Below, piece by piece: positions 51,831-62,107 of a stretch of DNA of 64,000 nucleotides (its first letter is position 1; the number at the start of each line of letters is the position of its first letter). Made by a program: the position numbers and the translations under genes. The notes below the pieces were generated by a model that was not told where the DNA came from, searched no databases, and was given only the letters and a program-made list of their open reading frames with translations. Where the stretch lies: positions 130,804 to 194,803 of the forward strand of contig JAACQG010000005.1 in assembly GCA_009995045.1 (NCBI GenBank), given 5' to 3'. The DNA comes from Alphaproteobacteria bacterium (GTDB taxonomy: Bacteria > Pseudomonadota > Alphaproteobacteria > Micavibrionales > Micavibrionaceae).

Positions 51831-52347
51831 TTAAGCTTTCATAGCGACGCCGTATTATGCGGCGGTCGCTAAAAAAAATACACATTAATGCACTTTTTAG
51901 GCTCGTTAAAATCTTAACGGGCCTTAGTCACGTGCGGCTTTTCACGCCGTGAACAATTATTTCTTTTTTGTATTTTCACTGTATGTTCTCATTGCGTTGG
52001 GTCGAATAATTGTTGTAGTTTGAATTTATCAGCAGGGCGTTAATAGAAATATTAATAAAAAGATCCGAATGGGTCGTTTGTTGATTACATATGTGTGCAA
52101 AAATACCTAGAATTGGTAATTTTGTTGCGTGTGTAAATGTGGGGAAACTGTCTCAAGCCTATGCTCCTAGTAGAGCGCGCTTCAGAATTGTAGCCTGTAT
52201 AAATATTAAAATCGTTGTTTGAAAAACCTTTGTTGGGGCTTTAATGGCCATTCCGCAAACCCTTTTTCTTTGCCTGCGTTTCGTGTGTTGGCCCCCGGTT
52301 TTTATGCGTTTTAAACAACAACACTTTTGAATGAGGAGAAAATGAGT
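51831..52347 (+). other. Long rpsT-dnaA spacer with hairpins and DnaA boxes
   Basis: About 517 bp without a gene. Three hairpins: TAGCGAC-GCCG with CGGC-GTCGCTA (51842-51871), an 11-bp AGGCTCGTTAA stem (51899-51924), and a CACG/CGGC one (51929-51951). None is followed by a T-run. DnaA boxes: a perfect match to TTWTNCACA, on the minus strand, at 52094-52102 and an 8/9 match at 52130-52138, with a 7/9 candidate at 52138-52146. It may hold the dnaA promoter; an origin cannot be confirmed. Confidence 0.5.
52094..52102 (-). promoter_or_regulatory. DnaA box upstream of dnaA
   Basis: TGTGCAAAA, the reverse complement of TTTTGCACA, fully matches TTWTNCACA. It lies about 250 bases before the dnaA start, near a second 8/9 match at 52130-52138. 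Confidence 0.55.
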
Positions 52348-53781
52348 ATGTCAGACATCGGAACTAAGACCGTTGCATTGATTAAAGAGAATGCTGAGTA
52401 TCAGGAAGCGTCTTTAAAGCCATCAAAGGAAATTATGAAGGTTTGGAAGAAAGTGCATTCTGATATGCGCTCTGAGTTCGGTGAGGCAGTGTTTCGTAGC
52501 TGGTTGAAGCCTTTATCTCTTCAGGCTTTTTATCACGGTACTATGGAGGTTTCTGTTCCCACTCGCTTTATGCGTGACTGGATTCAAAATCACTATTCTG
52601 ACCGCATCCTTGCGATGTGTGCAGAGGCTTCTGAAGACATTAAGCGTTTACAGATTGTTGTTGTTCAGGGCGCGATTTTAGATGATATCGAAGAAGCCCC
52701 AATGAATTCTGCACCTGCTAAGGCAAACCAGAATGAGCAAAGAGAAATGCTTGCCGAGGTGTCTTCACCGCTTGATGAGCGTTTCAAATTTGAAAATTTC
52801 GTTGTTGGTAAGCCTAATGCGCTTGCGCATGCTGCGGCGCGGCGCGTTGTTGAAAGCGATGTTTTGCCATTTAACCCGCTCTTTATCTATGGTGGTGTTG
52901 GTCTTGGTAAGACGCATTTGATGCACGCAATTGCGCATGCTCTTCAAGAGCAACAGCCAGAAAAGACAGTGATGTATCTTTCTGCCGAGAAGTTTATGTA
53001 TCAATTCGTTAAGGCGCTTCGCTCTGATTCTGCGATGAACTTTAAAGAAATGTTCCGCAGCGTTGATGTGTTGATGATTGATGATATTCAATTTATCGCT
53101 GGTAAAGAATCGACACAGGAAGAGTTCTTCCACACGTTCAACGCACTTGTTGATCAAAACAAACAGATCATTATCTCCGCTGATAAGGCGCCTGGTGACC
53201 TTACCGGCATTGATGAGCGTCTTCGTTCACGTCTTGCATGGGGTTTGGTTGCGGATATTCACCCGACAACGTATGATTTGCGTCTTGGCATTTTGCGCAC
53301 AAAGCGCGAGCAGCTTGGCGCGGATGTTCCTGATAGTGTGCTTGAGTTTTTGGCGCTTAAGGTGACAAGCAATGTGCGTGAGCTTGAAGGGGCGTTGAAC
53401 CGAATCGTTGCGCATGCTGATGTTTCAAAGGCTGTGATTACACTCGAAAGCACGCAAGATGTCCTCCAAGACTTGCTCCGTGCGCATGATCGCCGCATCA
53501 CGATTGATGAAATTCAGCGTAAAGTGGCTGAGCATTACAATCTTCGTCTGACTGATATGCATTCTGCGCGTCGCGCACGCAATGTTGCCCGTCCGCGTCA
53601 GGTTGCGATGTATCTTGCCAAGCAATTAACCGCGCGTTCATTGCCGGAAATTGGCCGTAAATTTGGTGGCCGTGACCATACAACTGTTATGCATGCCGTG
53701 CGTAAGGTTGAGGAATTGATCGAAGAAGATGCGCAAATCGCACAAGACGTAGATGTCGTGCGCCGCGCTTTGACTGGCTGA
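52348..53781 (+). CDS. dnaA: Chromosomal replication initiator DnaA
   Basis: A 477-residue AAA+ initiator that melts the origin. Domain I (about 20-95) has the 'FRSWLKPLSLQAF' type helix, domain III has Walker A GGVGLGKTH and DDIQFIAGK, and domain IV ends with the DnaA signature GGRDHTTVMHAVRKVEEL. ATGs at 52342 and 52348 are both in frame; GAGGAG (52333-52338) lies 9 bases before the second but only 3 before the first, so 52348 is preferred. The TTG at 52327 is not needed. Confidence 0.97.
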   Translation: MSDIGTKTVALIKENAEYQEASLKPSKEIMKVWKKVHSDMRSEFGEAVFRSWLKPLSLQAFYHGTMEVSVPTRFMRDWIQNHYSDRILAMCAEASEDIKRLQIVVVQGAILDDIEEAPMNSAPAKANQNEQREMLAEVSSPLDERFKFENFVVGKPNALAHAAARRVVESDVLPFNPLFIYGGVGLGKTHLMHAIAHALQEQQPEKTVMYLSAEKFMYQFVKALRSDSAMNFKEMFRSVDVLMIDDIQFIAGKESTQEEFFHTFNALVDQNKQIIISADKAPGDLTGIDERLRSRLAWGLVADIHPTTYDLRLGILRTKREQLGADVPDSVLEFLALKVTSNVRELEGALNRIVAHADVSKAVITLESTQDVLQDLLRAHDRRITIDEIQRKVAEHYNLRLTDMHSARRARNVARPRQVAMYLAKQLTARSLPEIGRKFGGRDHTTVMHAVRKVEELIEEDAQIAQDVDVVRRALTG

Positions 53782-54103: not shown

Positions 54104-54344
54104 ATGTTACCTTCCTTTCCTCTTTTCAACGAGCGAGGTTTGAAAAAAGTTCATCATAATTGTGAAAAAATTTGGCGTGGTGCTTTGCGTGTGAAGTGAA
54201 GGCTAAACCATAAACGCGTTTAAAAGGGCGCTGTAGTCGCGCAAGTGTGGGATTTCGTCTTTGAAAATTAATTATGGGACGAAATTGTGGTTTTTCGCAA
54301 AAAAGAAATGTACGGCGAGGATTTGGTGGTTTAAAACTTACGTT

Positions 54345-55367
54345 ATGACACATACAATTGAAGAGGTGCGGGCGCTCTATAAAAAGCCGTTATTGGATTT
54401 GATTTATGATGCTGCTACGGCGCATCGGGCGAATCATGATCATCACGAAATGCAAATGTGTACATTGCTGTCGATTAAGACGGGCGGATGCGCGGAGGAT
54501 TGCAAATATTGTTCTCAGTCGATCTATAATAATACCGATCTTGAAAAAGAGATTTTGATGAAAACCGATGAGGTTTTGGCGCAAGCACGGGCCGCGAAAG
54601 AAGCGGGGTCAACCCGATTTTGCATGGGGGCTGCGTGGCCGCGTGTGCTTGATGGGCGTGCATTTGATCGTGTGTGCGACATGGTCAAGGGCGTTTCCGA
54701 TATGGGGATGGAGGCGTGTTGTACGCTTGGTATGCTCACCGAGGATCAGGCGCATAAGCTTAAAGAGGCGGGATTGACGGCGTATAATCACAATCTTGAT
54801 ACATCCGAAGAATTTTACGACAAAATCATCACAACCCGCTCTTACCAAGAGCGTCTTGATACACTTGCGAATGTCGCAAAAGCGGGCATTAGTGCATGTT
54901 GTGGCGGGATTTTGGGGCTCGGTGAGGATGAAGATGATCGTATCTCCTTGCTCCACACACTCAGCAATCTAAACCCGCAGCCAGAGAGCGTGCCGATTAA
55001 CATGCTTGTACCGGTTGAGGGGACGCCATTGGCGAAAGTTGAGCGATTGGATATTTTTGAATGGATCAGATGTATTGCCGTTGCGCGCATATTGATGCCA
55101 AAGGCGATGGTGCGTTTATCCGCAGGTCGCTTGGAGATTTCGAAAGAGGCGCAAGCGATGGCGTTCATGGCGGGTGCGAATGCGATCTTTACGGGTGAAA
55201 AATTGCTGACGACGGCAAACCCAGAGGCGGATTTTGATTATACGCTTCTTGGGGAGCTTGGTATGACACCGCGCGTGCCATACAAAGATGGTGTTGCAGT
55301 GACAGAGCAGGGCGGCGGATGCGGCAAGCCTGGTGGTTGTGGGTGCGCGTCTCAAGAGGCCGCTTGA
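54345..55367 (+). CDS. bioB: Biotin synthase
   Basis: The 340-residue radical SAM enzyme inserting sulfur into dethiobiotin. The cluster motif GCAEDCKYC gives the CxxxCxxC cysteines near residue 52. 'TLLSIKTGG', 'CCGGILGLGE' and 'RLSAGRLEI' carry further conserved residues. The frame is open upstream to 54261, but the ATG at 54345 matches the normal start 'MTHTIEEVRALYKKPL'. The stop TGA overlaps the start of bioF. No BioR-type palindrome was found upstream. Confidence 0.96.
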   Translation: MTHTIEEVRALYKKPLLDLIYDAATAHRANHDHHEMQMCTLLSIKTGGCAEDCKYCSQSIYNNTDLEKEILMKTDEVLAQARAAKEAGSTRFCMGAAWPRVLDGRAFDRVCDMVKGVSDMGMEACCTLGMLTEDQAHKLKEAGLTAYNHNLDTSEEFYDKIITTRSYQERLDTLANVAKAGISACCGGILGLGEDEDDRISLLHTLSNLNPQPESVPINMLVPVEGTPLAKVERLDIFEWIRCIAVARILMPKAMVRLSAGRLEISKEAQAMAFMAGANAIFTGEKLLTTANPEADFDYTLLGELGMTPRVPYKDGVAVTEQGGGCGKPGGCGCASQEAA

Positions 55368-56491
55368 TAGATTTTCATGACAAGATCGACGCGTTAAAGG
55401 CAAAAGGGCGATATCGTAGCCTGACGCTGCCGCGCGGCGTGGATCTGACGTCCAATGATTATTTGGGTTTGGCGGGGCATCCTGTGTTGCGGGAGGCGGC
55501 GATCTCTTATTTGCAAAATGGCGGCGATATTGGTGCGGGTGGCTCGCGGTTGTTGCGTGGACATTGCGCCGAACATGCGGCATTAGAAGAGTATGCGGCA
55601 ATGTTTTTTGCGGCGCCGCGCGCGTTGTATTTGTCTTCGGGTTATCAGGCGAATGTCACATTGTTTCAAACACTTGCGACGCGACATGATGTGATTATCT
55701 TTGATGAATATGTGCATGCATCGGCGCGGGAGGGAATTCAAAACTCTCACGCGCAGCATATGCGTGTGCAGCATAATGATGTAAACGCATTTGAAGATGC
55801 GTGCAAAAATGCGCAGCAAAAAGTGTCCGCGACGGCGGGCGGTAAAATCTGGATTTCGATTGAATCTGTTTATTCCATGGATGGGGATGTTGCGCCGCTT
55901 GATGCGTTATATAAATTGGCGGAGCGATATGATGCGATGCTTGTGATTGATGAGGCGCATGGCACAGGTGTGATGGGCGCAAACGGCAAGGGCGTTTCGG
56001 AAGAATTGATAGCGCAGCATGGATATGCGCGGATTGTTACGCTGCACACATGCGGAAAAGCGATGGGTGTTGCGGGCAGTTTGATGTGCGCGTCTGATGG
56101 TGTGATTGACATGATGATTAATGCTGCGCGCGGATTTATATACTCCACCGCGCCAATGCCACTGCAGGCATATTTGGTGCAAAAATCACTTGAAATTATT
56201 GGGTCGGGTGAGGGTGATGTGCGGCGGGCGCGGCTCGATGGTTTGAATAAAAAGGCGCAGCAAATTTTCGGCGGATCAGGAACATGTATTGTGCCGATTG
56301 TTATTGGTGATGATGCACGCGCCGTTGAGATCGCGGATATGCTGCAGCGAAAAGGATGGGATATTCGTGCCATCCGCCCACCAAGCGTCCCCGAAGCAAC
56401 CGCGCGTTTGCGTTTGTCGTTGAACGCGGATTTGGGCGAGGATGTGTTGGATGCGTTTGCTGCGGATTATGCGGGTATTGTTAACAGCTAA
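55364..56491 (+). CDS. bioF: 8-amino-7-oxononanoate synthase
   Basis: A 375-residue PLP enzyme condensing pimeloyl-CoA or pimeloyl-ACP with alanine, first step of biotin ring assembly. The PLP Lys is in HTCGKAMG, the aspartate in VIDEAHGTG and the helix GDIGAGGSRLLRGH near the N-terminus are typical. It starts at a TTG that overlaps the bioB stop (TTGA), so translation is coupled. Homologues of this length are normal. Confidence 0.93.
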   Translation: MIDFHDKIDALKAKGRYRSLTLPRGVDLTSNDYLGLAGHPVLREAAISYLQNGGDIGAGGSRLLRGHCAEHAALEEYAAMFFAAPRALYLSSGYQANVTLFQTLATRHDVIIFDEYVHASAREGIQNSHAQHMRVQHNDVNAFEDACKNAQQKVSATAGGKIWISIESVYSMDGDVAPLDALYKLAERYDAMLVIDEAHGTGVMGANGKGVSEELIAQHGYARIVTLHTCGKAMGVAGSLMCASDGVIDMMINAARGFIYSTAPMPLQAYLVQKSLEIIGSGEGDVRRARLDGLNKKAQQIFGGSGTCIVPIVIGDDARAVEIADMLQRKGWDIRAIRPPSVPEATARLRLSLNADLGEDVLDAFAADYAGIVNS

Positions 56492-56510
56492 AATTACATG
56501 GGGGCTAAGC

Positions 56511-57218
56511 ATGAAGATATTTTCTGGTCTTATTATTGGTGTTTTATTGATCGCGGGCGCAGCCTTTGCGGTGGCGCAGGTTGCGGATAGCGGCGCGAAG
56601 TCTTCTTATAACTGGCGCTACAAAATGACCGTGACGGTGGACACACCCGAAGGTGAAGTCTCGGGCAGTGCGGTGCATGAGATTAGAAATTCCCTCTATG
56701 GCTCGCCTTTATCGCAAGGCGGCAACCCCGGTAAAATCAGTGGTGAGGCGGTTGTTGTTGATCTGGGGGAGCGTGGAGTTTTATTCGCGCTGATTTCGGA
56801 TCGATCGGATAACCGTTTTAGCGAAAATTTCCCCGTGCCCGGAAAGGTTGGCGCGATCGGCAGTACAACGCCCGAAGGGATCAAATATCAATCCTCGCTG
56901 CCCGTTGGCACAAAAGCGGTTTTAGACCCGCACACCCCGCAAGGCTACCCCAAGCTTGTGACGTTTACCGATATGGATGATCCGAAATCCGTCACTTTGG
57001 TGCAGGAATGGGAACGCCGCGGCGAAGCCGGCTATGCGTTTAATGATCAACGTTTGCTCAAAGCCGATCGGTTTGAGGAATTGTTTGGTGAGGGTGTGCG
57101 GCTGAAAGAGATTACGATTGAGATTGCCGATGAACCCGTGACGTGGGGCGTGGTTAAAAAATATTTAGGCCAACGTCGAGCAGTTGGCCCTTATGAGTTT
57201 ATTAAGGGAGAAAAATAA
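56511..57218 (+). CDS. Secreted protein, unknown function
   Basis: A 235-residue protein with a signal peptide (MKIFSGLIIGVLLIAGAAFA, cut near AVAQ). The mature part is a beta-rich domain ('YKMTVTVDTPEGEVSGSAVHEI', shortened), similar to unnamed proteins seen in alphaproteobacterial genomes. The ATG at 56511 follows a GGGGG ribosome-binding site, 19 bp after bioF. Its stop overlaps the ATG of the next gene (TAATG). Within the biotin operon its role is unclear. Confidence 0.7.
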   Translation: MKIFSGLIIGVLLIAGAAFAVAQVADSGAKSSYNWRYKMTVTVDTPEGEVSGSAVHEIRNSLYGSPLSQGGNPGKISGEAVVVDLGERGVLFALISDRSDNRFSENFPVPGKVGAIGSTTPEGIKYQSSLPVGTKAVLDPHTPQGYPKLVTFTDMDDPKSVTLVQEWERRGEAGYAFNDQRLLKADRFEELFGEGVRLKEITIEIADEPVTWGVVKKYLGQRRAVGPYEFIKGEK

Positions 57219-57646
57219 TGTCACTTAAACCTGAGCTAATGCACGCAATTCTCTCAATGGACGCATATAATCGCGGGTATGACGCCTCTATTGAATTAAG
57301 TAATGGCGGTGTTGGTGATGCCGAAATTGCCAAAACGACATTAGACGGTATTACTGTGAACCTAGATTCTATTATTATTCGTGATCCGGTCACAGGCGAA
57401 AGATTAGACGACGATATAGGCTTCTACGCCCTCGCTTACGATTACAACGGCGAAACCATCATTTCCTATCGGGGGACGGATTATCCGGAAGAAGATGGCA
57501 AAGTCACAGTCGCGGGCCAGGAAATCTATAAGGATATCTATCACGGTTGGTCATTAGGCGACGGCAATTTGATGAGCGAGCAAGGCCAAATTTTTACCAA
57601 TAAGTTTTCAAAGTCGTTAATAGCGGAAGCTCCATCGCTTTTTTAA
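57218..57646 (+). pseudogene. Truncated class 3-lipase-like hydrolase
   Basis: A 142-residue protein that resembles the N-terminal part of an alpha/beta hydrolase (lipase class 3 / DUF2974-like): DIGFYALAYDYNGETIISYRGTDY and DIYHGWSLGDGNLMSEQGQ, the region normally followed by the GHSLGG nucleophile. Here the frame stops soon after, without a GxSxG, so the enzyme should be inactive. It is translationally coupled to the upstream gene by TAATG. It could be a decayed gene or a small standalone domain. Confidence 0.55.
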
Positions 57647-57708
57647 ACACGCTTTATGGGTAATGATTTGACTCGCAATCGTGGCTTGGTTTGTTTACAA
57701 AAAGAGTT

Positions 57709-58347
57709 ATGGCGAATAAATGCATTATTACGGGGACCGATACGGATATCGGCAAGACGGTTGTGGCGGGCATGCTCTCGCTGGCGCTTGGCGCGTCCTA
57801 TTGGAAGCCGATACAGGCGGGCGTTGAAGGCGGCGTGGATACCAAAGCCGTACAAAAGATGACGGGGCTACCCGCGGAGCGATTCTTGCCCGAGAGCTAT
57901 GTCCTGTCCGAGCCATTATCGCCGCATCGTTCGGCGGAATTGGATGATGTGACGATCAAGGTTGATGATCTTACAATCCCTGATACATCCGATCCATTGA
58001 TTATCGAGGGTGCGGGCGGGTTGATGGTGCCGTTGAGTCGTAAGAATTTGATGATTAATTTGTTCCGCAAATGGAATGAAGACCAGCATGTGCCGGTTAT
58101 TTTGGTGGCGCGTACGGGGCTGGGTACGATTAATCATACGTTATTGTCGCTGGAGGCTCTGTGGGCGCGTAATATTCCGATCCATGGGATCATTTTTGTG
58201 GGCGAGGATAATCCCGATAATATCAATACGATAGCAGAGTTTTCCGATGTAAAAGTGCTCGGTAGACTTCCAATCCTTGACTCTTTGGATTCAAAATCTT
58301 TAAGTAAGGCATTCGATGATAATTTTAATCTTGAGGATTTTAGCTAA
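57709..58347 (+). CDS. bioD: Dethiobiotin synthetase
   Basis: A 212-residue P-loop enzyme forming dethiobiotin from DAPA, CO2 and ATP. The P-loop is GTDTDIGKTVVA at the N-terminus, and EGAGGLMVPL near residue 103 is the classical BioD motif. The in-frame start at 57691 is less likely; the ATG at 57709 follows AAAGAG and begins the conserved strand. bioA follows directly. Confidence 0.94.
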   Translation: MANKCIITGTDTDIGKTVVAGMLSLALGASYWKPIQAGVEGGVDTKAVQKMTGLPAERFLPESYVLSEPLSPHRSAELDDVTIKVDDLTIPDTSDPLIIEGAGGLMVPLSRKNLMINLFRKWNEDQHVPVILVARTGLGTINHTLLSLEALWARNIPIHGIIFVGEDNPDNINTIAEFSDVKVLGRLPILDSLDSKSLSKAFDDNFNLEDFS

Positions 58348-59664
58348 GTGAGCAATCGCGTTTCACCCGTCTGGCACCCTATGACCCAACATAAAGTGTT
58401 TGGGCCTGCGGTTCATATCGAACGGGCGGAAGGGGCGTATTTGTACCAACGCAACGGCAAAAAGATTATCGATGGTATTTCATCATGGTGGGTGAATACC
58501 CATGGGCATTGCCACCCGAAAATCGTCGCCGCCGTGCAAGAGCAGGTTGGCAAGTTAGAGCAGGTGATCTTTGCCGGATTTACCCATGAGCCCGCCGAGA
58601 AATTAACGCGTAAATTGCTAAGCGCGGTGAAATCGCGTTTTCACCGGATGCAAGGCAAGCGGATTGAATTTGCGTTTTATTCCGATAGCGGCTCTACGGC
58701 GATTGAGGTCGCGATGAAGATGGCGGCGGGATATTTCGCGCAAAATGGCGATCCGCGGACGAAAATTTTGGCGCTTGAGGGTGGTTATCACGGCGATACG
58801 TTCGGGACGATGTCTGCGGGTGCGCGCGGCGTCTTTAATCAAATGTACGCGCCGTTTTTATTTGATGTGGCGCATCTTCCTTTCCCACATGAAGGCAAGG
58901 AAGAGCAGGTTCTGGCCAAGCTTGATGCATGGCTGAAGAAACATGGTGAGGAATGCGCGGCGTTTATCTTTGAGCCGATCGTGCAGGGCGCGGCGGGGAT
59001 GCAGGTTTATTCGGGCGATGTTTTGTCCAAGATGGCGGCAAAATGCCGTGAATACGGAATATTGCTGATTGCGGATGAGGTTATGACGGGGTTTGGTCGC
59101 ACGGGGACGATGTTCGCAAGTGAGCAGGCCAATATCATCCCTGACTTTCTTTGTTTGTCGAAAGGGCTTACCGGTGGTTTCTTGCCGATGGGGGCGACTT
59201 TGACGCATCGTGATATCTATAAGGCGTTTTATCATGATGAGAAATCGAAACAGTTTTTCCATTCTACATCCTTTACCGCCAATCCTATGGCATGTGCGGC
59301 GGCGCTGGCGAGTTTGGAGATTTGGGAAGAGGAAGATGTGCTTGCGGATGTCGCGCGGATTGAGGGCGAGCATCTGAAGGCGGCGGCGTGGTATATGGCG
59401 CGTCCTGATGTGCTTGATGTGCGGGTTAAGGGCGGGATTTTCGCCGTGGATGTGCGCGATGATGTGTCCGGGTATTTGTCTTCTATCGCAACGGATATAT
59501 ATGATTTCATGCTTGAGAATGGCGTTCTCTTGCGGCCGATTGGCAATACGGTTTATATATTGCCGCCATACTGCATAAAAAATAAAGATTTGGAGATAAT
59601 CTATGAAACACTCTGGCGATCCTTGGACAGCCTCCGGAATGAAGGTGTCCAACAAGCAGCATGA
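58348..59664 (+). CDS. bioA: Adenosylmethionine-8-amino-7-oxononanoate aminotransferase
   Basis: The 438-residue PLP-dependent aminotransferase making DAPA with SAM as amino donor. WWVNTHGHCHP near residue 48 and CLSKGLTGGFLPMG with the PLP Lys near residue 272 are diagnostic. It uses a GTG start that directly follows the bioD stop codon. Its 3' end overlaps the next gene by 62 bases. Confidence 0.95.
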   Translation: MSNRVSPVWHPMTQHKVFGPAVHIERAEGAYLYQRNGKKIIDGISSWWVNTHGHCHPKIVAAVQEQVGKLEQVIFAGFTHEPAEKLTRKLLSAVKSRFHRMQGKRIEFAFYSDSGSTAIEVAMKMAAGYFAQNGDPRTKILALEGGYHGDTFGTMSAGARGVFNQMYAPFLFDVAHLPFPHEGKEEQVLAKLDAWLKKHGEECAAFIFEPIVQGAAGMQVYSGDVLSKMAAKCREYGILLIADEVMTGFGRTGTMFASEQANIIPDFLCLSKGLTGGFLPMGATLTHRDIYKAFYHDEKSKQFFHSTSFTANPMACAAALASLEIWEEEDVLADVARIEGEHLKAAAWYMARPDVLDVRVKGGIFAVDVRDDVSGYLSSIATDIYDFMLENGVLLRPIGNTVYILPPYCIKNKDLEIIYETLWRSLDSLRNEGVQQAA

Positions 59665-60265
59665 AGCGCCTGTTCGTGATTTCCTTGAAGCGATTATAGA
59701 CCAGCCAAAGGCGCATGCGAAATTCCTCAACATGCTTTCTATGCTTGAGCATATGGGCAGCCGTAAGATTATGGTGAGCCAGATGGATCGCGGGGATGTG
59801 CTCTCTCAAGACACGCTTCAGCATCTCGCCGAAGAGGCGCGGCATGCTTATTTCTTTAAACGCCATGCCGAGCGGATTAACGGCGCGCCGATGGATGGAT
59901 GGCTTGATGCCAACACCATGACCCGTGTGCCTGCGCTGATGTATTTTGGGCGTATGGATGCGGGCATTTCCAAGCGCGTGGGCAATGACGACGCTTATGG
60001 TTGGGTGTCGCTGATTATCGAACTTCGTGCATGCTGGCTTTACGGGATTTACAATGACGTTGTTGAGCGCGCAGATTTTCATTTGCCGCTTAAGGGATTG
60101 CTCGCGGAAGAAGATCATCATCTCGCGGAAATGTTCGAGATGTGCGGCGAGAATCACGACCTGCTGAAAGAGCTTTCGGCTTATGAGACGTCGCTTTTTG
60201 AAAAGCTCTGGAGCGCGTTAGAGGGTGAATTTTCAAGCACGGTGGATAATCGCGAAGCCGCGTAA
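59603..60265 (+). CDS. Ferritin-like diiron protein at the end of the biotin operon
   Basis: A 220-residue helical protein of unknown function. It shows the ferritin-like diiron ligand pattern: E49 (LEHMGSRK), E78-x-x-H81 (EEARHA), E140 (IIELRA) and E170-x-x-H173 (EEDHHLAEM), with E-to-E distances of 29 and 30 residues, matching a four-helix bundle with two EXXH sites. No redox or electron-donor partner is visible in the window. Its ATG lies 62 bases inside bioA and has GGAG at 8 bases. The tight overlap suggests a role in biotin synthesis, for example in making the pimelate precursor, since no bioC/bioH/bioI/bioZ is seen here; this is inference. Confidence 0.75.
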   Translation: MKHSGDPWTASGMKVSNKQHEAPVRDFLEAIIDQPKAHAKFLNMLSMLEHMGSRKIMVSQMDRGDVLSQDTLQHLAEEARHAYFFKRHAERINGAPMDGWLDANTMTRVPALMYFGRMDAGISKRVGNDDAYGWVSLIIELRACWLYGIYNDVVERADFHLPLKGLLAEEDHHLAEMFEMCGENHDLLKELSAYETSLFEKLWSALEGEFSSTVDNREAA

Positions 60266-60266
60266 T

Positions 60267-60848
60267 TCATTCATATAGTTTTGCAAAAGCTGAATTTGAA
60301 TCTGTCTCTATTGAAACTTCTCTTCGCCAACTGCCTGGTTTGTATGGTGATAAGTAGTTAATTTTTATGGTGAGATCATGTAAAGAAGGATCTATAAATG
60401 AGCAGTCTGATTTTGATAAAATTATAACATCATAATTTAACGGTGCTTTATCATTGCTCGCTTTGTTGTTTAAAAACTTTAAAAAATGTTCGTATTTTAA
60501 TCGTGACATCCACTCGTAGACTAGAAAACCTACATTGCATGCTAAAAACCTTACGCTTTGATTGTTTATTTCGCCCTCCCATGTTTCGTAACATCGTCCA
60601 TGTTTTTCTGAGCTGGAGCTAAGCTTGTTTATAAAAATTCCACCTTTATCTAATAATTGTTCTCTCACTATATCCCAAACGGCGCTTTTTCCTGCGTTTT
60701 CGGGGCTTTGAAGAGAGATTATTATTGGTTTGAGATCAGAGGGGTCCCTATTTGCAATCATGTTGGTAATGATTGCAGCTATATCAATTCCAAGTTTTTC
60801 AATGTCGGCACGAGACTCGAAGGCAAATGTTTTACTTAATTTGGACAT
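60267..60848 (-). CDS. P-loop-like protein of unknown function
   Basis: A 193-residue protein, AT-richer than the genes around it. SPENAGKSAVWD near residue 50 resembles a Walker A motif (GxxxxGKS with the first Gly changed), and YDVIILSKSD near residue 140 could be a Walker B strand. The layout recalls TsaE-like small ATPases, but the match is weak. It is convergent with the diiron gene (1 bp gap). Probably an acquired or lineage-specific gene. Confidence 0.6.
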   Translation of the reverse strand: MSKLSKTFAFESRADIEKLGIDIAAIITNMIANRDPSDLKPIIISLQSPENAGKSAVWDIVREQLLDKGGIFINKLSSSSEKHGRCYETWEGEINNQSVRFLACNVGFLVYEWMSRLKYEHFLKFLNNKASNDKAPLNYDVIILSKSDCSFIDPSLHDLTIKINYLSPYKPGSWRREVSIETDSNSAFAKLYE

Positions 60849-60991: not shown

Positions 60992-62107
60992 ATGAAGCTT
61001 AGCATCGAGCGCGCAGCCCTATTGAGATCATTGAACCACGTACAAAGCGTTGTTGAACGTCGCAATACCATTCCGATCCTTTCAAATGTTTTGCTGAAAG
61101 CCGAAGATGGTGCGTTGTCACTTGCGACGACGGATATGGATCTTGAAATCAATGAATCTGTGGCTGCGAATGTAAGCGAAGCGGGCGCAACGACTGCGCC
61201 GGCGCATACATTGCATGACATTGTGCGCAAGCTTCCCGATGGCAGTGATGTTGAATTGTCATTGAACGCCGAAGGCACGCAGATGATTGTTAAATCTGGT
61301 CGCTCACAATTTAAACTTTCATGTCTTCCAACGACGGATTTCCCTGAAATCGGGACTGGTGATTTGCCAACGTCATTCGCGCTTCCTGCGGCTGATCTTC
61401 GTGCGCTCATTGACCGTACGAAATTTGCGATGAGCACGGAAGAGACACGTTATTATTTGAACGGTATTTACCTTCACCAAGCCGAGCAAGGCGGCGTTGC
61501 TGTGCTTCGCGCTGTGGCGACTGATGGTCACCGTCTTGCGCGGTTTGAAATGCCTTTGCCAGAAGGTGCGGCAGGTATGCCGGGCATCATTATTCCACGC
61601 AAAGCCATTGGCGAGCTTCGTAAGCTTTCCGATGATGCGGCGGATTCGATTGTGATTACATTGTCCGAGAATAAGATCCGCTTTGCGTTTGATCATATTA
61701 TTCTGACATCCAAGCTTATCGACGGGACATTCCCTGATTATCAACGCGTTATCCCCGAAGGCAATGACAAGATTGTCGAAGTGGATGCGAAGCTTTTGAC
61801 ATCTGCGGTTGACCGTGTATCCACGATTTCTGATGGTAAATCACGCGCGATCAAAATTGCGATGAATGGCAAATTGATGACGATCTCTGCGTCTTCTGCG
61901 GAAGCGGGAAGTGCGACGGAAGAAGTCGAAGTCAACGGCGATACAGATATCGAGATTGGCTTTAACGCGAAATATCTTCTTGATATTACATCGCAAATCG
62001 AAGGCGAAGGCTGTCGTTTTACTTTGGCTGATCCGGCGAGTCCGACAATCATCCAAGATAATTCGGATACAAGCGCGCTATACGTGTTGATGCCGTTGCG
62101 GGTTTAG
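60992..62107 (+). CDS. dnaN: DNA polymerase III beta subunit (sliding clamp)
   Basis: A 371-residue ring-forming clamp with three similar domains that tether the polymerase. 'RRNTIPILSNVLL', 'KLSCLPTTDFPEI' and the C-terminal 'DTSALYVLMPLRV' are conserved. No recF follows. It lies 7 kb from dnaA, with the biotin operon between, so the usual dnaA-dnaN-recF order is broken. Confidence 0.97.
   Translation: MKLSIERAALLRSLNHVQSVVERRNTIPILSNVLLKAEDGALSLATTDMDLEINESVAANVSEAGATTAPAHTLHDIVRKLPDGSDVELSLNAEGTQMIVKSGRSQFKLSCLPTTDFPEIGTGDLPTSFALPAADLRALIDRTKFAMSTEETRYYLNGIYLHQAEQGGVAVLRAVATDGHRLARFEMPLPEGAAGMPGIIIPRKAIGELRKLSDDAADSIVITLSENKIRFAFDHIILTSKLIDGTFPDYQRVIPEGNDKIVEVDAKLLTSAVDRVSTISDGKSRAIKIAMNGKLMTISASSAEAGSATEEVEVNGDTDIEIGFNAKYLLDITSQIEGEGCRFTLADPASPTIIQDNSDTSALYVLMPLRV

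Follow-up and report, generated by a model that had tools for sequence, protein, structure and literature searches.

The last gene of the biotin operon in the window (the whole stretch of 64,000 nucleotides analysed here, from an alphaproteobacterium of the Micavibrionaceae) very probably codes for a divergent BioE, that is, a diiron oxygenase that would supply pimelate for biotin synthesis. This gene (59603..60265, + strand) is an ORF with an ATG start, ends the operon and encodes a predicted BioE-type ferritin-like diiron oxygenase of 220 aa. A preliminary description of this DNA had proposed that such an oxygenase could make the pimelate moiety by a new route, or else serve another step. 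The first proposal fits the biotin linkage seen in several phyla, the homology to BioE, the ligands, the pocket and a mostly reciprocal distribution with BioC-like genes, although the role is still deduced from sequence; taking also into account the helical model, the bioA linkage and the few alternative genes, it can be considered well supported. No positive support was found for another step, and the route itself is not new, since BioE was reported for other bacteria in 2025 (PNAS 10.1073/pnas.2501226122). What looks new is an alphaproteobacterial branch outside the set collected at >40% identity, plus a possible oxygen logic; the interest that remains lies in this sister branch, in the tight junction with bioA and in the oxygen reading. 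The 2025 route would be extended to Micavibrio-like MAGs and Rhodospirillales, with members in other phyla, a likely function would be assigned to a protein that reaches the cut-off of no family in Pfam or NCBIfam, and the missing pimelate step would be supplied in genomes otherwise showing none.

According to the accessible sections of PMC12915131, BioE is a ferritin-like diiron oxygenase that converts long acyl chains into pimeloyl-ACP or -CoA, requires oxygen and bypasses BioC-BioH in E. coli; it is known from Elizabethkingia meningoseptica / Chryseobacterium and from Chlamydia psittaci. The same sections state that six ligands of CpBioE (E41, E68, H71, E140, E170 and H173) are essential for activity and that its acyl pocket is hydrophobic (W33, L37, L40, I48, L105, V135, I139, L146, Y147, Y150 and L205). 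BioE sequences were collected there at >40% identity and >85% coverage to EmBioE, which is a search threshold, and the sections available do not name the class of the window protein as a BioE host. In the open literature no report was found of BioE in Alphaproteobacteria or in Micavibrio, subscription journals being mostly outside this search.

The operon runs in the order bioB-bioF-(two ORFs)-bioD-bioA-oxygenase gene, the bio genes and the oxygenase gene being on the + strand, between two flanking ORFs that are kept in relatives and serve as neighbourhood markers (52327..53781 and 60992..62107, both +), which we take from their sequence to be dnaA and dnaN. Biotin synthase (bioB, 54261..55367) scores 389 bits with TIGR00433 (cut-off 225), dethiobiotin synthase (bioD, 57691..58347) 114.5 bits with TIGR00347 (cut-off 83.3) and adenosylmethionine-8-amino-7-oxononanoate transaminase (bioA, 58348..59664) 533 bits with TIGR00508 (cut-off 405). 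For bioF (55319..56491), 8-amino-7-oxononanoate synthase, TIGR00858 is the best match, with 312 bits, below the cut-off of 426; BioF is the enzyme expected to take the pimeloyl thioester. The listed start of bioD is TTG, and an ATG located 18 nt inside may be the true start. The two ORFs between bioF and bioD (56442-57218, 258 aa, and 57218-57646, 142 aa) have no Pfam match better than E 0.13, and the length of the bioF-to-bioD gap differs among relatives. Another ORF of 193 aa (60267-60848, - strand), placed between the BioE-type gene and dnaN, has no Pfam match at E 0.1.

The sequence bears out what had been described at the junction with bioA: the 3' end of bioA and the start of the oxygenase gene overlap by 62 nt (59603..59664, +), and a GGAG motif located inside bioA ends 7 nt 5' of the oxygenase ATG, so that the putative ribosome-binding site and the start both lie within bioA. 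The ferritin-like ligand set noticed at the beginning (E49, E78xxH81, E140 and E170xxH173) is complete. E49, E78, H81, E140, E170 and H173 do not vary among the 25 sequences aligned from the order, that of the window among them, and the six ligands are kept in all 66 sequences of a wider scan of genome contigs (65 loci plus the window, the fragments L134 and L135 having been left out of this alignment).

The window protein looked unknown because no Pfam or NCBIfam family matches it over cut-off. Its best family matches are AurF (E 0.014, 15 bits against a Pfam cut-off of 29.6) and EncB (E 0.015). The AF2 model (pLDDT 92.1) is all-helical and places the named ligands on four helices. The solved folds with the highest Z for this model are aldehyde-deformylating oxygenase (ADO, 16.7) and MiaE (16.0), which act on other substrates and share 14-16% identity with it in the aligned structures; a search by Foldseek alone found nothing at E <= 0.001. 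The helical fold of BioE has been likened to this same oxygenase family (PMC12915131, accessible part). These folds, together with the weak AurF match below the Pfam cut-off, are what would speak for an unrelated diiron hydroxylase of the MiaE, AurF or ADO type that came into the operon by chance. Such an origin is hardly credible: neither MiaE nor ADO families match at E <= 1 in Pfam or NCBIfam (AurF is also absent from the NCBIfam matches), bioA is a constant neighbour in the order (25 of 25 loci) and a frequent one in the contig scan (45 of 67), and the profile match to BioE described below is strong.

The comparison with BioE was made through Flavobacteriales, where 41 of 395 genomes gave a match and 30 loci were used, so that EmBioE and CpBioE are represented by stand-ins from Weeksellaceae plus the published residue numbers and not by their own sequences. 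Twenty-eight of these loci agree with 13-16 of the 17 residues published for EmBioE, at a constant offset of +2; owing to the choice of start, the offset differs in L222, which keeps 16 of 17 residues, and in L241, which keeps 13 of 17 when read from an inner start. Besides, bioF lies beside the gene in all 30 loci, and bioD as well in 29. Because of this residue agreement and of the adjoining bioF, proteins of the L240 type are taken as BioE. Over 170 of its 220 aa the window protein shares 30% identity with L240 (BLASTP, E 2e-22), and therefore fails the >40% threshold of the collection (PMC12915131, accessible part). In profile-profile comparison with the BioE stand-ins (hhalign) the probability reaches 99.7, with E 1.3e-25, and the ligands correspond one to one.

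When the alignment is anchored on the ligands, eight of the nine CpBioE pocket residues that can be mapped are identical in the window protein: L37, L40 and I48 correspond to L45, L48 and I56, whereas V135, I139, L146, Y147 and Y150 are the same residues with the same numbers. The ninth, W33, is replaced by F41, and L105 and L205 could not be mapped; Y117 of EmBioE corresponds to Y132. Thus the six ligands, most of the mappable pocket, the linkage to biotin genes and the helical fold are common to BioE and the window protein. On the other hand, the distance from the second-helix His to the third-helix Glu is 10 residues shorter in the window protein than in CpBioE, and the first two ligands are 29 residues apart instead of 27. 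The genes are also placed differently, next to bioF in Flavobacteriales and after bioA, with the 62-nt overlap, in the window. As for the cognate MocR repressor BioL, which is encoded near bioE although Chlamydia has no BioL either (PMC12915131, accessible part), no ORF of its size occurs at 52-64 kb of the window, the only ORFs >300 aa there being those of DnaA, BioB, BioF, BioA and DnaN.

In a 60-row tree (which left out 12 of the 24 loci of the order, L105, L108, L134, L135 and 22 of the 30 Flavobacteriales loci) the published-type BioE forms one clade and the branch of the window protein lies across a 100/96 split, so that by sequence this protein belongs to a lineage that is sister to the published enzymes. 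Linkage to biotin genes occurs on either side of this split, the deepest one supported, and its absence corresponds to two changes, from which we infer that the biotin association of the family is old. A BioE relative might nevertheless have shifted to a different oxidation tied to biotin (hydroxylation or desaturation of acyl-ACP), with pimelate coming from a route not seen here. The identity of only 30% to the stand-in leaves room for this, as do the variation of pocket positions 41 and 146 among the 66 aligned rows, the two tree branches holding members with no biotin gene nearby and the BioC-like genes detected in 6 of the 19 genomes searched for such members (3 of 20 for biotin-linked ones; E <= 1e-35). 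However, the conserved ligands, the retention of most mapped pocket residues, the biotin linkage in both main parts of the tree and the few candidate genes for another route in the genome of the window (a weak BioC match, no P450 and one FabH) make this shift improbable, and pimelate supply by a BioE-type enzyme is the reading preferred.

The gene was found by sequence search in 25 of 144 genomes, that of the window included, and the same 25 were recovered by profile search from 143 genomes of the order. The overlap with bioA is of exactly 62 nt in 19 of the 25 loci of the order, window included; it is of 68 nt in three, of 98 nt in one (where the end of bioA is rough), absent in another, and in L015 it amounts to 53 nt with the start chosen or 62 nt with the next start upstream. 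In wider samples the gene is scarce, being present in 6 of 385 genomes of the class, three of them from the same family as the window, and in 1 of 398 genomes of the phylum, which is the genome of the window itself. The contig scan gave 67 loci; going by the record titles, their hosts are Micavibrio-like and other Alphaproteobacteria, Rhodospirillales, Nitrospirillum, Gammaproteobacteria, Burkholderiaceae, spirochaetes, Bacteroidota, Bdellovibrionota, Chlorobiota and others.

It had been asked whether homologues track with bioA, and they do so for the most part: 45 of the 67 contig-scan loci include bioA, commonly in the order bioB-F-D-A-oxygenase gene, while the remaining 22 (some of them on short contigs, two being fragments) have no biotin gene nearby. 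Among the bioA-linked loci, 21 more distant ones are separated from bioA by up to 47 nt or overlap it by 4-86 nt, except that one of the 21 gives a value of 248, which depends on a rough bioA end. Both flanks, dnaA and dnaN, were seen in 16 of the 24 contig-scan loci of the order, the others being cut off by the end of the contig or of the stretch; the biotin operon is also placed between dnaA and dnaN in relatives that do not carry the BioE-type gene. All six ligands are present, with no biotin gene in the stretch examined, in L101-L106, L108-L111, L113-L116, L120, L122, L123, L125, L128 and L132. Three of these (L120, L123 and L132, from Leptospiraceae and Spirochaetaceae) adjoin a set of folC-, peptidase- and lgt-like genes, named by eye.

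Other ways to obtain pimelate were sought in the whole genome of the window, which is 93.75% complete. Known genes such as bioC, bioI and bioZ had not been seen in the window, and the genome agrees with that: its best BioC match is weak (E 9.1e-16, compared with <=1e-35 for relatives carrying a BioC-like gene), so no good bioC was found elsewhere either. There is no match to P450 and only one match of FabH type, and for this reason BioI and a separate BioZ are unlikely. Two genomes of the same genus that carry the gene at 99% completeness (G003 and G007) also gave weak BioC matches. BioI, the cytochrome P450 of Bacillus, is a heme enzyme unrelated to the window protein. BioC-BioH, which supplies the same precursor, is formed by a SAM methyltransferase and an esterase, needs no O2 and is not homologous to BioE. 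Relatives may have a BioC-like gene in place of the BioE-type gene or in addition to it, and in several genomes the BioC-like gene comes with a bioH-like hydrolase.

This exchange was counted in the 55 of 143 genomes of the order with BioB over cut-off. A gene was called BioC-like at E <= 1e-35, a threshold set after seeing the list, and the curated BioC cut-off is not reached anywhere in the order (best 184.1 against 184.95 bits), so that absence calls for BioC are relative; outside the order, the BioC search covered the genomes behind 39 of 43 loci, leaving out L094, L105, L108 and L135. Among the 55 genomes 19 have BioE only, 25 a BioC-like gene only, 4 both and 7 neither (Fisher p 1e-5, a value blind to kinship). 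The expected tracking of the gene with lack of BioC thus stands as a mostly reciprocal distribution within the order and not as a significant association once kinship is considered: in the BioB tree there are three independent pairs on supported branches, in which BioC goes the opposite way 2.0 times and the same way 0.2 times on average. Two BioE genomes lack BioB over cut-off, G022 and G008, with loci near contig ends; G008 has a BioC-like gene and brings to 5 the number with one among the order's 25 BioE genomes. The BioB-positive genomes with neither gene (G005, G021, G033, G115, G116, G148 and G157) may be either incomplete assemblies or users of a further pimelate route.

The exchange is also seen within the genus of the window, where G000, G003, G004 and G007 have BioE and no BioC-like gene, a BioC-like gene is present in G001, G002 and G006, and both are missing from G005; in the last four the dnaA-bioBFDA-dnaN locus is present without BioE. 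In G001 and G006 the BioC-like gene lies on another contig, preceded by a hydrolase (Abhydrolase_6), and the gene in this position is here called bioH-like, a putative name given by its place. The G001 protein matches the bioH model weakly (34 against 207 bits), and its counterpart in G044 has no NCBIfam match and is 35% identical to it.

The distribution bears on a further possibility, that of a diiron protein acting in a late step or in iron supply as an accessory to the Fe-S enzyme BioB instead of making pimelate. The gene shares the operon of bioB, BioB needs Fe-S clusters, and ferritin-like folds also store iron, which would suit such a function. However, in the order the gene mostly alternates with BioC-like genes, whose product is an enzyme of the early pathway, and the homologous enzyme BioE makes BioC-BioH dispensable in E. 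coli (PMC12915131, accessible part); the accessory function is thus very improbable, even more so than the shifted oxidation.

On the preferred reading, and judging from the published biochemistry of BioE, the diiron centre would take O2 plus electrons from a redox partner, and a C14-C18 acyl chain bound to ACP (possibly CoA) would be cut between C7 and C8, producing pimeloyl-ACP (or -CoA) together with a fatty acid of shorter chain (PMC12915131, accessible part). The pimeloyl thioester would then be used by BioF, after which BioA, BioD and BioB would complete biotin. The 62-nt overlap may couple translation of the oxygenase to that of bioA. In the genome of the window the BioE-type enzyme would probably be the only pimelate route, and biotin synthesis there would therefore need air.

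Related to oxygen, some relatives may have retained an additional pimelate route that works without it, for anoxic life. NrdD, the anaerobic ribonucleotide reductase, is present in 6 of the 25 BioE genomes (G008, G012, G035, G044, G049 and G061), and five of these six have a BioC-like gene, against none of the 19 others (Fisher p 1e-4, blind to kinship). In those five genomes, which belong to four genera (stretches L208-L212), the nrdD and bioC matches are about 1.0-1.1 kb apart with the bioH-like gene between them. The stretch of G044 includes UbiT, UbiU, UbiV, NrdD and NrdG over the NCBIfam cut-off and that of G008 includes HemN (NCBIfam), similar genes having been recognised by eye in the other three; in L209, UbiTUV lies beside the bioH-like/bioC pair and nrdD. 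Because of this gene placement, the order could have an oxygen-switched first step in biotin synthesis, with BioE acting in air and the divergent bioH-bioC pair by nrdD, under an FNR-type box, acting in anoxia; this is the simplest interpretation and a proposal for which we see even chances. Such a switch would resemble the pairs HemF/HemN and UbiH/UbiUV. As part of the same reading, and with the odds equally balanced, the BioE lineages with no nrdD would lack BioC-BioH and depend on air for their biotin supply. If this is true, the pairs located beside anaerobic genes provide a testable reason for keeping two pimelate routes.

FNR-type boxes were sought in the stretch from the bioH-like gene to nrdD, extended by 60 nt at both ends and scored against base shuffles, using the FNR consensus. 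A perfect TTGATNNNNATCAA is present in the stretches of G012, G044 and G049 (0-1 of 500 shuffles as good), whereas the best boxes reach 9/10 in G008 (10 of 500 shuffles) and 8/10 in G035 (84 of 500). Four control loci, taken upstream of bioH-like/bioC pairs where the genome lacks BioE, scored 7-8 (89-449 of 500 shuffles), and the region upstream of bioB in the window scored 8 (48 of 200 shuffles). Finally, among the 25 BioB-positive genomes with a BioC-like gene but lacking BioE, 3 carry nrdD: in G039 and G046 it lies on a contig other than that of the BioC-like gene, and in G088 about 11 kb from this gene.
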